NCBI RefSeq assembly: GCF_900107965.1
Contig: NZ_FNVU01000007.1
Coordinates: 186,001-250,000, forward strand
Length of the DNA: 64,000 nucleotides
Source of the DNA: Actinacidiphila yanglinensis
GTDB lineage: Bacteria; Actinomycetota; Actinomycetes; Streptomycetales; Streptomycetaceae
Direction of reading: 5' to 3'
Shown here: positions 3,103-27,589 of the stretch, piece by piece
Layout of the letters: each line of letters starts with the position of its first letter
Numbering within the stretch: position 1 is the first letter of the stretch
The notes under the pieces: model-generated
Database searches by the model: none
The model's input: only the letters and a program-made list of their open reading frames with translations
Told to the model about the DNA's origin: nothing
Position numbers and translations under genes: made by a program

Positions 3103-3189
3103 GGTCCTTCTCCTTCTTCGCTGCACCGGCCGTGTCAGGTACCGATGTCAGTGCGAACCGGCGGCTGCCGGCTCGTGGGTCTCCGGGCT

Positions 3190-19291: not shown

Positions 19292-19600
19292 TCAGAGCTT
19301 GATCTCGATGTCGACGCCGGCCGGCAGGTCCAGGCGCATCAACGAGTCAACGGTCTTGGGCGTCGGGTCGAGGATGTCGATCAGGCGCTTGTGCGTGCGC
19401 ATCTCGAAGTGCTCGCGCGAGTCCTTGTACTTGTGCGGCGACTTGATGACGCAGTACACGTTCTTCTCAGTGGGCAGCGGCACCGGGCCCGCGACCTGCG
19501 CACCAGTACGCGTCACCGTCTCGACGATCTTCTTCGCCGAGGAGTCGATGACCTCGTGGTCGTAGGCCTTGAGCCGAATGCGGATCTTCTGTCCCGCCAT
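19292..19600 (-). CDS. rpsJ: 30S ribosomal protein S10 / NusE
   Basis: This 102-residue protein begins [20 protein letters not shown] and ends [16 protein letters not shown], the usual length. It is a 30S head protein and also the NusE partner of NusG in antitermination and transcription-translation coupling; NusG is encoded at 43976-44929. It is the first gene of the S10 operon. The leader upstream carries a hairpin shared with the rpsL leader. Confidence 0.98.
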
Positions 19601-19979
19601 GGCTACTCCGTAGTCCTTGTCTCTGTCTTCCGCTCTGGCATCCGCTTGCCCGACCCACGCGGTCGGGCGTGTCGCGTCTCTCGCACATGGCTTTCCGCAT
19701 GCGGAAAGGCCCTGCACCAGGGATGTGCGTGGGAGATCTCACCCACCGGATGCCTGGCCGGAGCCGCGCTGACACTTCCCGGGAGATTCCCGTACGTCCG
19801 CCCCAGTGCTGCCCCGGGGGGCAGATAAGGCGACGAGTACTGTGGGACTCGCTTCCGGTCCTCCCGACGGGAGGCGTGCAACATCGGCGCTCGACCGAGC
19901 AACTTGAGCAGTCTGCCATACCGGACGCACCGGACGCCAATCGAGCCGGGTAGCTTACCCGCGGCCCCGCCCCCGCCAA
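19601..19979 (-). promoter_or_regulatory. S10 operon leader and candidate promoter
   Basis: This gene-free stretch lies before rpsJ. A candidate promoter on the minus strand is TTGGCG (19974-19979), a 16-bp spacer and TAAGCT (19952-19957), giving a leader of about 345 bases. The leader holds the hairpin CCGACC-CACGC-GGTCGG (19650-19666, plus-strand notation) and the perfect 18-bp palindrome CTTTCCGCATGCGGAAAG (19691-19708). The promoter call is by eye. Confidence 0.55.
19650..19676 (-). promoter_or_regulatory. Conserved leader hairpin, rpsJ copy
   Basis: This 27-bp block is identical at 26 positions to 27415-27441 before rpsL. It contains a 6-bp stem and ends 49 bases before the rpsJ start. 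Confidence 0.75.
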
Positions 19980-20060
19980 ACCCGCCCTCCCCCCGTGACG
20001 GCGAGCGGCCGGCGCGGAGGGCCCCCCGCGCCGCCGCGGAGGGCCCCGCCCGCCCGGGTC

Positions 20061-20226
20061 TCAGCCGGCCGTGATCCCCGGCGCCGGCTTTACGACGTAG
20101 TCGGCCGAGTAGGTGATCGGGTCCCCGTTGTTCCACCAGGCCCAGGCAGAGCCCGGTGACCCCGTACACGTGCAGCGCGCCCCCGGTGGCCGCCGCGGCG
20201 CGCACCCGCCTGGTGGTGTTCCGCAT
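20061..20226 (-). pseudogene. Small secreted or membrane protein with a frameshift
   Basis: Two reading frames are coding-like in sequence. Codons 1-25 (20226-20152, MRNTTRRVRAAAATGGALHV...) have only G or C in third positions. Beyond this the same frame loses that bias, while the frame ending at the TGA at 20061 gains it (AWAWWNNGDPITYSADYVVK...). Reading across one extra T near 20148 gives a continuous protein of about 54 residues, with a signal-anchor-like N terminus and a Trp-rich segment. A GAGGGAGAGGG ribosome site precedes the ATG. It may be a real frameshift mutation or a sequence error; I do not recognise the family. Confidence 0.45.
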
Positions 20227-20485
20227 CCGCGCCCTCTCCCTCTGCGGTCCCCTCCCCCGGGATTCGGGGCGACCGGTGCGGAGCGGAGGAAGGGTCCGCG
20301 CGGGACCGCAATGGGCGTGCGCACGCGCGTGGCAGGGGCGCGGAATCCGGCCGTTTTCCTGTCAGGCGCCGCGCACGGCGGGCGGCGCGATCGTGCCCGC
20401 GATGAGCGCGAGGGCGGCGGCCCCGACCCGACGCGCACGGGGTTAGGGTCTCGGGAGCATCCCACCGGAGTTCGGAGGCGGCCGT

Positions 20486-21190
20486 ATGAAGGCCAGTACC
20501 GGCGGCAGCGCCCTGCTGCGGCTGCGGAAGGTCAGCAGGACCTACGGCAAGCGGCAGGCCCTGCATCCGATGGACCTGGACGTGACCGCCGGCACCTGCA
20601 CCGCGCTGTTCGGGCACAACGGTTCGGGCAAGTCCACGCTGCTGCGGATCGCCTCCGGCCGCGACACCCCCAGCGGCGGCCAGGCGCTCTTCGCCGGGCG
20701 GCAGATCAGCGAGGACGACCCGGAGGTACGCGCCCGGGTCGCCGTGGTCGGCGACACCGTGGCCTGCTACCCCGACCTCACCGTGCGCGAGCACCTGGAG
20801 CTGGTGACGGTCGCGCACGCGGTGGACGACGCGGCGGGGTGGATCGACCAGGTGCTCGCGGACCGGCGGCTGTCCGACCACGCCGACGCGCTGCCGGGCG
20901 CACTGTCCTCGGGCCAGATGCAGTCCCTGCTGCTGGCCGCCGCCTTGGTCCGGCCGCGCGACCTGCTGGTGCTCGACGAGCCCGAGCAGCGGCTCGACCC
21001 CGACGCCCGGCAGCGGCTCGCCGCTCTGCTGGTCGCCGAGAAGGAGAGCGGCGTCGCGGTGCTGCTGGCCACCCACCAGGCCGAGTTGGCGGAGGCGGTG
21101 GCCGACCATCTGGTCGCCCTGGAGGACGGCCGGGTCGCCGCCCAGGGCCCGCCCGCGGACGTGCTGCGGCAACTCGGCGCGGGCGCATGA
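20486..21190 (+). CDS. ABC transporter ATP-binding protein
   Basis: This 234-residue single nucleotide-binding domain has Walker A GHNGSGKST (about residues 51-59), the signature LSSGQMQ, Walker B LLVLDEPEQRLDPDAR and the H-loop LLATHQAEL. The glutamine of the signature is in its usual place. It overlaps the next gene by ATGA, so the pair is one operon and the partner is probably the membrane subunit. The substrate is unknown. The 20227-20485 stretch upstream contains no other gene I can support. Confidence 0.88.
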   Translation: MKASTGGSALLRLRKVSRTYGKRQALHPMDLDVTAGTCTALFGHNGSGKSTLLRIASGRDTPSGGQALFAGRQISEDDPEVRARVAVVGDTVACYPDLTVREHLELVTVAHAVDDAAGWIDQVLADRRLSDHADALPGALSSGQMQSLLLAAALVRPRDLLVLDEPEQRLDPDARQRLAALLVAEKESGVAVLLATHQAELAEAVADHLVALEDGRVAAQGPPADVLRQLGAGA

Positions 21191-22902
21191 GCCGCCCCGC
21201 CGCGAGCCCGTTCCCCGCGGCCGGAGAACCCACCGACAGCGCGGACCCGACCGACGGCGACGGCGCGTACGCCTCCGGTGGCTGGAGCGAGGCCGACGAC
21301 GACCGCACCGCCGAGACACTGGCCTGGCTGAAGAGGAAACGCAAGGCCCATCGCCGGCAGCAGGGCCGCGACCTCGCGCTGCTCCTCTACTCCCTGCTGC
21401 TCGCCGTCGTCGGCTACGGCAGCGGCCTGGCCGTCCACTTCCTGCGCGGCCTCGACGAGGGCGCGGACTACGGCGGCTTCGGCGCCGGGCTGACCCGCGG
21501 CCTGCCCGCCGTGTTCCCCGCGCTGACCCTGCTGCTGTGCCTGGTGTCGGCCCGCGACGCGCTGTGGCGCGGGCCGGTGGTGCTGCCCGGCCCGGCCGTG
21601 GGCTGGCTGCTGGGCCAGCCGGTGCGGCGCGCGGCGGTGCTGCGGCCGTGGTTCCGGCTGTCCGCCGGGCTGGCGCTGATACCCGGCGTGCTCGGCGGGA
21701 TCGCGGGCGCGGTCCTGCTGCGCGTCACCGGCCAGGCGTCGATCGGATCCGCGCTGCCGGCCGTGCTGCCCGCTGCGCTGTGCCTGCCGCTGCTGGCGGT
21801 CGCCCTCGGCATGGCCGTGGAGCGACGCCCGGACCGCGCCGCGACGGTGCGCCGCTGGACCGCGCCCGCCGTCCTGCTGCTCGCCGCACTCGGCGCGCAG
21901 ACCGGGCTGGCCGGCACCGGGCACCGCGTGCGGCCGCTGGAGTGGGTCGAGTTGTGGTCGGGGCCGTGGGGCTGGGCGGCCCAGCCGGTGGTCCGCGCCT
22001 GCGGCGGCAGCGCGCCGGGCTGGCCGGCCGCCGTCGTCCTGCTGCTGGCCGCCACCGCGGCCGCCGTGCTGCTCGCCCACCGCGAGGCCGGCGCCGTACC
22101 GACCGCCCAGCTGCGGGCCAGGGCGGCCACCGCCACCACCGTGGCCTCCGTGCTGTGGTCGCTCGAACTGCGTGCCGCCAAACTCGCCCTGCTGGACGCC
22201 GCCGGCGGCGACGCCACCCGCATGGTCCGGCTGCCGCCGCCGCGCGGCCGGGCGGCCCGGCACCTCGCGGTCGTCTGGCGCGACACCCTGACCCTGCTGC
22301 GCGCGCCCGGCCGGCTCGGCCGCTCCGTGCTGTGGACGGCCGCCGCGGCGACCGCCGCCGGGCTCGGCGCCGACCTCGGCGGGGAGCGGCGCCCGGTGGG
22401 CCTGGTCGTCGGCCTGGTCTGCGGCTACCTCGCGGTCGGCGCCCTCGCCGAGTCCGCGCGGGTGGAGACGGACGACCTGCGGCGCTCCGCCTGGTCCCCG
22501 TACCGGCTGCGCGGCCTCATGCTGCAGCACGGGGTGGTGCCCGCGGTGGTCGGCGCGGCCCTCGGCCTGCTGGCCGCGGTCCCGCTCGCGCTGCACGGCT
22601 CCCCCGCGGCCCTCCTCGACATGCCGTTGTGCGCCTTCCCGTTCACCGCCGCCGCCCTCTACGGCGCCTGCCGCGGCCCCGCCCGCACCCAGCTGATGTT
22701 CCTCGGCGGCGGCTCCCCCATCGGCTCCCCCGGCCCCCTCATCTACCTCGCCTGGTACGCGGCCGGCCCTCTGGTCGCGGTGACCGTGCTGGCCCTCACC
22801 CTCTCCTACGGCGCCCCCGCCACCGTCGTGACGGTGAGCGTGCTCCTCACCGCCCTCATCGCCTCGGTGGCGGCCAGGTCCGCCACGAAGCTGCTCACCT
22901 AG
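21187..22902 (+). CDS. Polytopic membrane protein, probable ABC partner (DUF6297-like)
   Basis: This 571-residue protein has a charged N-terminal region (residues 1-60) and then many hydrophobic segments, probably 10 to 12 helices. Examples are LALLLYSLLLAVVGYGSGLA, AVLLLAALGAQTGLAG and the last helix TVSVLLTALIASVAA. Its ATG overlaps the stop of the ATPase gene, which argues that they form one transporter. From memory this layout resembles the streptomycete DUF6297 family; that name is tentative. It ends 48 bp before a terminator shared with tuf. Confidence 0.75.
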   Translation: MSRPAASPFPAAGEPTDSADPTDGDGAYASGGWSEADDDRTAETLAWLKRKRKAHRRQQGRDLALLLYSLLLAVVGYGSGLAVHFLRGLDEGADYGGFGAGLTRGLPAVFPALTLLLCLVSARDALWRGPVVLPGPAVGWLLGQPVRRAAVLRPWFRLSAGLALIPGVLGGIAGAVLLRVTGQASIGSALPAVLPAALCLPLLAVALGMAVERRPDRAATVRRWTAPAVLLLAALGAQTGLAGTGHRVRPLEWVELWSGPWGWAAQPVVRACGGSAPGWPAAVVLLLAATAAAVLLAHREAGAVPTAQLRARAATATTVASVLWSLELRAAKLALLDAAGGDATRMVRLPPPRGRAARHLAVVWRDTLTLLRAPGRLGRSVLWTAAAATAAGLGADLGGERRPVGLVVGLVCGYLAVGALAESARVETDDLRRSAWSPYRLRGLMLQHGVVPAVVGAALGLLAAVPLALHGSPAALLDMPLCAFPFTAAALYGACRGPARTQLMFLGGGSPIGSPGPLIYLAWYAAGPLVAVTVLALTLSYGAPATVVTVSVLLTALIASVAARSATKLLT

Positions 22903-22949
22903 CCGGTCGGGAGCGCCCCACGGGCGCGCGGAAGAACCCCGGCAACGCG

Positions 22950-22983
22950 AAGGTGCCCCACTCCCGGAGGAGTGGGGCACCTT
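22950..22983. terminator. Bidirectional terminator between membrane gene and tuf
   Basis: AAGGTGCCCCACTC (22950-22963) pairs perfectly with GAGTGGGGCACCTT (22970-22983) around CCGGAG. The A and T ends of the stem suit termination from both convergent transcripts. Confidence 0.85.
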
Positions 22984-23010
22984 CTCTACGGCTCAACGAG
23001 CCCGCAGGAC

Positions 23011-24204
<1,194 letters not shown>

Positions 24205-24278
24205 TGGGGTCCTCCTGGGAGTGGATCTGTACGCCTTGCTTCATCGGCGCCAGGTGATCTTTGCTGGAATGCCGACCC

Positions 24279-24330
24279 CGGGGTACTTCCGGCACATAGT
24301 GCGGGAAATACCCCGAAAGCCTGCTGTCAA
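24279..24330 (-). promoter_or_regulatory. Long hairpin and possible -35 in the fusA-tuf gap
   Basis: The arms at 24279-24295 and 24299-24315 (CGGGGTA... and ...TACCCCG) pair at 15 of 17 positions around a 3-base loop. On the minus strand a TTGACA (24325-24330) precedes it, but no good -10 lies at 16-18 bp. tuf of streptomycetes is known to be transcribed from its own promoter as well as with fusA; which role this hairpin has is open. Confidence 0.45.
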
Positions 24331-24354
24331 GCCTAAACGAGGCAGTACGAGGAA

Positions 24355-26484
<2,130 letters not shown>

Positions 26485-26521
26485 GTGGCTCAGTCTTCTC
26501 TCGGTTCGATGGGGGTGGTGA

Positions 26522-26992
26522 CTACCAGCGGTAGTGCGCGAAGGCCTTGTTGGACTCGGCCATCTTGTGCGTGTCCTCGCGGCGCTTCACGGAGGCACCG
26601 AGGCCATTGCTGGCGTCGAGGATCTCGTTCATCAGCCGCTCGGTCATGGTCTTCTCGCGGCGGGCACGGGAGTACCCGACCAGCCAGCGCAGCGCCAGCG
26701 TGTTCTGACGGCCCGGACGGACCTCGACCGGCACCTGGTAGGTCGCACCGCCGACGCGGCGGGACTTGACCTCCAGGGTCGGCTTGATGTTCTCCAGCGC
26801 GCGCTTGAGGGTGATCACCGGATCGGCGCCACCCTTCTCGCGCAGGCCCTCCAGGGCGCCGTAGACGATGCGTTCGGCGGTGGAGCGCTTGCCGTGCAGG
26901 AGGATCTTGTTGACCAGCGAGGTCACCAGCGGGGAGCCGTAAACCGGGTCGATGATGACCGGGCGCTTCGGGGCGGGGCCCTTACGAGGCAT
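26522..26992 (-). CDS. rpsG: 30S ribosomal protein S7
   Basis: This 156-residue 30S-head assembly protein begins [20 protein letters not shown] and ends [20 protein letters not shown]. The AAGGAG ribosome site lies inside the end of rpsL, which stops 2 bases upstream, so the two are coupled. Confidence 0.98.
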
Positions 26993-26994
26993 GC

Positions 26995-27366
26995 TTACTT
27001 CTCCTTCTTGGCGCCGTAGCGGCTGCGGGCCTGCTTACGGTTCTTCACGCCCTGCGTGTCGAGCGAACCGCGGATGATCTTGTAGCGAACACCCGGCAGG
27101 TCCTTCACACGGCCGCCGCGGACGAGCACGATAGAGTGCTCCTGAAGGTTGTGGCCCTCGCCCGGGATGTAGGCGGTGACCTCGATACCGCTGGTCAGAC
27201 GGACACGCGCGACCTTACGGAGCGCCGAGTTCGGCTTCTTCGGGGTGGTCGTGTAGACGCGCGTGCAGACGCCGCGACGCTGGGGCGAGCCCTTCAGCGC
27301 GGGCGTCTTGTTCTTCTCGACCTTGTCCTGCCGGCCCTTTCGGACCAACTGCTGGATCGTAGGCAC
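26995..27366 (-). CDS. rpsL: 30S ribosomal protein S12
   Basis: This 123-residue decoding-centre protein begins with a GTG codon (27366; [12 protein letters not shown] follows), with GGAGAAACG upstream. Lys43 in TPKKPNS and Lys88 in GGRVKDLPG are present, the streptomycin-sensitive states. It is the first gene of the str operon. A near-consensus promoter lies about 190 bases upstream, and the leader carries the hairpin shared with rpsJ. Confidence 0.98.
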
Positions 27367-27414
27367 CGTTTCTCCGGTTTCTGTGTGCCGATCTCGATAC
27401 ATCTAACCTGGGGA

Positions 27415-27441
27415 CCGACCCACGCGGTCGGGTGTGTCGCG
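27415..27441 (-). promoter_or_regulatory. Conserved leader hairpin, rpsL copy
   Basis: This is the 27-bp block shared with 19650-19676 before rpsJ, differing at one base (T for C in plus-strand notation). The stem is CCGACC (27415-27420) with GGTCGG (27426-27431). It ends 48 bases before the rpsL start. A second weak hairpin follows (CGCAC... GTGCG around 27448-27475). Confidence 0.75.
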
Positions 27442-27560
27442 GACCCCGCACGTCTCCGAAGCAACGGAAAGTGCGTCTTGTCGGGCGCCGCGGCCTCGGT
27501 GTCCTTGTCCGGTCACATGGCACGCACAAGGACCCGGGCACACCCCAGGCACAAGATGAG

Positions 27561-27589
27561 AGCGTACCTACCGCACCGGCTGCGGTCAA
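27561..27589 (-). promoter_or_regulatory. str operon (rpsL) promoter
   Basis: On the minus strand TTGACC (27584-27589), a 17-bp spacer and TACGCT (27561-27566) are close to the housekeeping consensus. The predicted start is near 27554, giving a leader of about 188 bases. The whole 27367-27727 stretch holds this promoter and leader and no gene. Confidence 0.8.

Follow-up and report, generated by a model that had tools for sequence, protein, structure and literature searches.

Two ribosomal-protein genes in the window, by which we mean the whole 64,000-nucleotide stretch of DNA that was analysed, are preceded by nearly the same short sequence, and this raises the question of what the shared sequence is and whether it works as RNA or as DNA. 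The initial annotation had reported near-identical blocks before rpsJ and rpsL, and we confirm them: with the next base added to each (19676 and 27441), the blocks agree at 26 of 27 positions, with 49 nt between the first block and the rpsJ ATG and 48 nt between the second and the rpsL GTG. In the window, the GACAC within the blocks starts 73 nt upstream of rpsJ in one case and 72 nt upstream of rpsL in the other. Over 27 bases the two leaders agree at 26 positions at best, compared with 17-19 in 8 pairs of dinucleotide shuffles. The 17-mer CCGACCGCGTGGGTCGG from the block centre has exactly two copies in the 9.59-Mb assembly, both at these blocks, and the 26-mer with up to 3 mismatches also occurs there just twice. 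The evidence set out below leads us to consider it very probable that both blocks are DNA operators of the transcription factor WhiA, long, asymmetric and made of two parts, through which it controls the str and S10 operons. The features concerned are the following.

19292..19600, minus strand: rpsJ (S10), Pfam PF00338, ATG at 19600
19650..19675, minus strand: proposed two-part WhiA operator in the rpsJ (S10 operon) leader, sequence GCGACACGCCCGACCGCGTGGGTCGG, kept across the class
19666..19673, minus strand: core in the rpsJ operator, GACACGCC, fits GAYACRCY, helix-turn-helix (HTH) half
19650..19659, minus strand: auxiliary half in the rpsJ operator, CGTGGGTCGG, recognized by conservation; putative LAGLIDADG-domain contact, by reference to PMC11701221
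26995..27366, minus strand: rpsL (S12), Pfam PF00164, GTG at 27366
27415..27440, minus strand: proposed two-part WhiA operator in the rpsL (str operon) leader, sequence GCGACACACCCGACCGCGTGGGTCGG, kept in the class and in nine families outside it
27431..27438, minus strand: core in the rpsL operator, GACACACC, fits GAYACRCY
27415..27424, minus strand: auxiliary half in the rpsL operator, CGTGGGTCGG, recognized by conservation and sequence
27561..27589, minus strand: predicted rpsL promoter, -35 TTGACC (27589-27584), 17 bp, -10 TACGCT (27566-27561)

The predicted rpsL promoter lies ~120 nt upstream of the rpsL operator, and an alignment of 19 Streptomyces leaders, that of the window among them, shows its -35 and -10 boxes to be conserved. 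Directly after the -10 box, GTGCCTGGGGTGTGCCCGGG (27533-27552, minus strand) probably folds into a hairpin where the rpsL transcript is predicted to start, and a sequence like it follows the rpsL promoter in Streptomyces and many other families of the class. Upstream of the site in the rpsJ leader (~19780-19890, minus strand), long blocks are strongly conserved in 23 aligned Streptomyces leaders, with a CTCCCG/CGGGAG palindrome; a TTGAC-type promoter was not found in this interval.

The initial annotation made its case depend on conservation of the pair in related genomes, and the pair is kept: the 26-mer with up to 3 mismatches is found in 210 of the 246 genomes of the host class (85 of 104 genera), while a reversed control pattern gave two matches in the same table. 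A looser alternative, a short-core search of 296 genomes allowing one mismatch, was too permissive to be useful, the reversed control also being frequent (40 versus 28 in the window's own genome). Of 32 motif loci checked for position, 31 precede rpsL or rpsJ; the other, a 3-mismatch match at locus L018, precedes neither gene and counts against the WhiA-operator reading. A search for S12 and S10 in 138 class genomes yielded 180 upstream regions (94 rpsL, 86 rpsJ) from 102 genomes, and the element reaches a score of at least 10 in 123 of them (84 rpsL and 39 rpsJ), 28-228 nt before the start codon. A site at this score is present in 95 of the 102 class genomes with fetched leaders, and six of the remaining 7 had the rpsJ leader alone in the sample. 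A GTDB genome scan for GACACRCCCGACCNCGKGGGTCG found at least 120 loci with the exact site. Among the matches listed, all 80 titles are by our reading Actinomycetota, and the 120 loci hold 122 exact sites, 52 before rpsL and 69 before rpsJ; 121 of the 122 lie 42-158 nt before one of these genes, and the remaining site runs off its contig, with 9 bases of contig after it. Genomes of ~1-2 Mb in families f5 and f25 (loci L039-L098) retain a nearly canonical rpsL site, and whiA was confirmed in one of them, G025. The proposal that one regulatory element in the same orientation is common to two ribosomal-protein operons is borne out by the relatives that keep the block.

The initial annotation had further read the block as an RNA hairpin, serving as a ribosomal-protein binding site, an antitermination signal or a processing site. 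On this reading, the 5' UTRs of rpsJ and rpsL would contain a hairpin to which an S10-operon protein, L4 or S10 for example, binds in feedback, or which acts as an antitermination or processing signal. The fixed orientation of the element suits an RNA leader, as does the fact that the stem CCGACC/GGTCGG can be drawn and that both window leaders contain it when folded to their predicted energy minimum. The variation among relatives does not bear this out. In 76 distinct versions the stem is paired in 80.9% of cells versus 81.2% in shuffles, its 5' arm being nearly fixed and its 3' arm drifting so that pairs are broken, and a search for compensatory changes found one double change in 456 cells. 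The mean pairing probability of the stem in context is 0.19 over 105 leaders. We rejected this stem as a conserved unit, since it pairs no better than shuffled versions. The commonest fold of the isolated 26-mer is instead a bulged hairpin, which takes two full forms in 35 and 10 of 105; it too is without clear covariation, with 87.6% of cells paired versus 87.4% in shuffles and a covariation score reached by 29 of 500 shuffles.

Comparison with known RNAs gave little more. An Rfam search of both leaders returned no match at the gathering score and weaker sub-threshold ones only, among them an alphaproteobacterial L2 leader over 19620-19667 (13.3 bits versus a cut-off of 37.8). The window does hold one true, ordinary RNA leader, the L17 ribosomal-protein leader RF03132 at 3121-3175 on the minus strand (64.6 bits). 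Mimicry of rRNA was also considered, using rRNA from G018 because none was found in the window's assembly. It was rejected, as the best matches are no better than shuffles for those windows that were compared with shuffles, and a 10-base near match in 5S, GAAACGCCCG, which has no shuffle comparison behind it, was treated as chance. The blocks thus resemble RNA ribosomal-protein leaders (Eckert and Weinberg 2020, PMC7247131) in being a conserved element before ribosomal-protein operons, but differ from them in having no conserved secondary structure and no Rfam match; the portion of Table 1 covered in that paper lists no actinobacterial S10 or S12 leader.

The conserved sequence points elsewhere. 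In 105 versions, taken as one per genus, gene and sequence, A3, C4, C6, C8, C9, C10, G11, C16, G17 and G19 (positions counted from 0) are invariant, position 7 is G or A (R7) and position 18 is G or T (K18). The 5' half of the site, invariant as GACACRCC, agrees with the WhiA core GAYACRCY described in PMC11701221, down to the degenerate R, and both window cores, GACACGCC and GACACACC, match this consensus. Downstream of the core lies an auxiliary motif, which makes an asymmetric site of ~20 bp; in the 105 versions its C16, G17 and G19 are invariant and its spacing from the core is fixed. It reads CGKGGGTCGG, and its letters differ from those of the auxiliary motif in Mollicutes.

This arrangement has a close counterpart in Mycoplasma gallisepticum, where WhiA binds GAYACRCY in the rpsJ promoter and represses the rpsJ operon, with its HTH domain on the core and its homing-endonuclease-like domain on a downstream auxiliary motif in an ATP-sensitive manner (Fisunov 2024, PMC11701221). 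The same study reports GAYACRCY upstream of rpsJ in the majority of whiA-bearing species examined, naming Actinobacteria among the groups. The Mollicutes rpsJ site is like ours in having a core and a downstream auxiliary motif before the rpsJ operon, and in lying downstream of the start site in most Mollicutes; it differs in that the auxiliary motif there is GTTGT rather than CGKGGGTCGG, and in that a second copy stands before rpsL here. In Streptomyces venezuelae, WhiA sites likewise have a GACAC core and rpsJ is a ChIP-seq target, with a peak 75 bp before the rpsJ start (Bush 2013, PMC3781837), which agrees with the 73 nt between GACAC and rpsJ in the window. Expression of rpsJ is down in the S. 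venezuelae whiA mutant (PMC3781837). The MEME search in that study reported nothing beyond GACAC, versus about 19-26 conserved bases in fixed orientation here.

Placement relative to promoters bears on whether the site acts as DNA. In a sample of other-class genomes chosen in part from families already showing sites, 41 of 78 rpsL leaders, from nine of 40 families, carry a related site, ACRCCCGNNNNCGKG with no more than 1 mismatch. In four of these families (f55, f62, f76 and f84), only 2-5 bp separate the site from TTGAC-N16-18-TAnnnT downstream of it in 21 of 21 leaders, each family having a single site-promoter spacing, and the site is thus outside, upstream of, the predicted rpsL transcript. 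Because it stands upstream of the -35 box, the site acts in these four families as DNA. In the other five site-bearing families outside the class, none of 20 rpsL leaders has the site adjoining the -35 box. Within the class, where promoters were again identified as consensus matches, 65 of 84 rpsL sites have a TTGAC-type promoter 20-198 nt upstream, where shuffling predicts 0.1; none of the 39 rpsJ sites, for which no promoter was found, has one upstream, and none of the 123 class sites has one downstream. The rpsL sites of the class are therefore probably within the transcript, as judged from promoter predictions, and this would suit an RNA leader. The initial annotation's hairpin nonetheless remains unsupported, given the lack of covariation, the low pairing probability, the absence of an Rfam match at gathering score or a convincing rRNA likeness, the position upstream of the -35 box in four families, a core that is a published WhiA DNA site and a distribution that tracks whiA. 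We consider an RNA leader improbable as the explanation of the blocks, although in the class, where the site is probably transcribed, an RNA role may exist in addition to the DNA role.

The distribution of whiA was compared with that of the site. The host encodes a WhiA of 325 aa with all three Pfam domains, whose closest PDB chains, 8dy7_I and 8dy9_I, are named WhiA, and whiA is present in 11 of 11 class genomes searched, including one of 1.3 Mb. Outside the class, whiA was searched in 60 of 80 genomes, the 20 left out being 18 site-bearing genomes and two without an rpsL start found. The rpsL site is present in 23 of 40 whiA-bearing and 0 of 20 whiA-lacking genomes (Fisher 4e-6), a value computed without correction for relatedness; since the genomes are related, such p-values overstate the association. 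In family f83, the sole sampled genome without the site, G364, is also the sole one without whiA. Before rpsL, the whiA-lacking genomes G246 and G426 contain a partial GAAACGCCCG, which counts against the WhiA-operator reading; loose core matches in 5 of the 20 whiA-lacking genomes look like chance. Also against that reading are the 17 of 40 whiA-bearing genomes of other classes that lack the rpsL site, and the class genome G106, in which whiA is present and the full site absent.

Alternatively, the block could be the DNA site of a different factor, or of an RNA polymerase pause, with a core resembling GACAC by chance. GACAC is short and has 15,116 copies in the S. venezuelae chromosome (PMC3781837), and the 17 whiA-bearing genomes without a site fit this alternative. 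However, the match extends over the 8-base GAYACRCY with its degenerate R, WhiA occupies rpsJ at the same distance in the ChIP data (PMC3781837), and the site is absent from all 20 whiA-lacking genomes searched, so that we regard a chance resemblance as very unlikely.

The WhiA-operator reading can also be set against operon layout, using the 73 class genomes in which rpsL and rpsJ share a contig and the leaders of the two are known. For this count a site was any score of at least 1, which adds only the rpsL site of G082 (9.1) to the score-10 set, and the layout cut of 4520 bp was picked after looking at the data. Where rpsL and rpsJ are separated by 4520 bp or more, 31 of 33 genomes have a site at rpsJ, as opposed to 3 of 40 with a smaller separation; a site at rpsL is present in 40 of 40 close-layout and 25 of 33 distant-layout genomes. 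G106 alone among the 73 has a site at neither gene. Close rpsL and rpsJ probably form one unit, and the counts then mean that the S10 operon is nearly always behind a site, a rule that would suit an S10-operon regulator, as invoked for an RNA leader, as well. In the window rpsL and rpsJ are 7.7 kb apart, versus 4.3-4.5 kb in 40 of the 73 genomes; tuf and rpsJ are separated by 3.4 kb (19601-23010), and the 929-aa frame between them at 20113-22902 on the plus strand has no Pfam match.

In the mechanism that we propose, the C-terminal HTH domain of WhiA would contact the core GACACRCC, and its LAGLIDADG domain, which is of the homing-endonuclease type, would contact CGKGGGTCGG, the auxiliary half, at a constant spacing from the core; one WhiA molecule would probably hold both halves and, when bound, would alter transcription of the str and S10 ribosomal-protein operons. 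Our own support for this consists of the sequence and its conservation, its near-exclusive place before rpsL and rpsJ, its placement at the DNA level in four families, its co-occurrence with whiA and its dependence on operon layout. WhiA occupancy at S. venezuelae rpsJ (PMC3781837), and binding to the core with repression of the rpsJ operon in M. gallisepticum (PMC11701221), were established by others. WhiA binding at rpsL, the assignment of domains to halves and the sign of regulation in the host genome are inferred. By analogy the sign could go either way, with repression in Mycoplasma and apparent activation in S. venezuelae. The class site, downstream of its promoter at variable distance, is easier to reconcile with repression or with an influence on promoter escape than with classical activation; only a weak effect of WhiA on elongation is reported (Fisunov 2024, PMC11701221).

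Some observations weigh against the WhiA-operator reading. A site downstream of the promoter at no fixed distance does not suit classical activation, and yet rpsJ expression is lower in S. venezuelae mutated in whiA. The blocks keep one orientation, which S. venezuelae WhiA targets in general do not (PMC3781837). The reported targets infA and rpsH have no such site within 260 nt upstream in the window, and WhiA at rpsL is absent from the texts checked, with no occurrence of rpsL in the main texts of PMC11701221, PMC3781837 and PMC4850268. A literature search found no rpsJ/rpsL leader motif. The rpsJ copy is known in substance, as WhiA at rpsJ has been reported (PMC3781837); relative to the texts checked, what appears to be new is the copy at rpsL, the two-part site of 26 bp, its near-exclusive placement and the layout rule.

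With 15,116 copies of GACAC, more determinants of WhiA binding must exist, a point left open by Bush 2013 (PMC3781837). The auxiliary half CGKGGGTCGG at fixed spacing is a candidate for the extra determinant, and with it one could predict from sequence where WhiA occupies ribosomal operons.

The best-known role of WhiA is in Streptomyces sporulation. A long operator before rpsL and rpsJ offers a concrete reason for the presence of whiA in all 11 class genomes searched, and suggests that WhiA controls ribosome production in many Actinomycetota. We give an even chance to the broader view that WhiA in this phylum ancestrally served to control the ribosomal superoperon, with a long two-part operator kept before nearly every separately transcribed str or S10 unit, the short GACAC sites of sporulation genes being later and weaker and the auxiliary half being the missing specificity determinant and perhaps an ATP-sensitive contact. 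If the auxiliary half is such a contact, WhiA would link ribosome production to the energy state of the cell.
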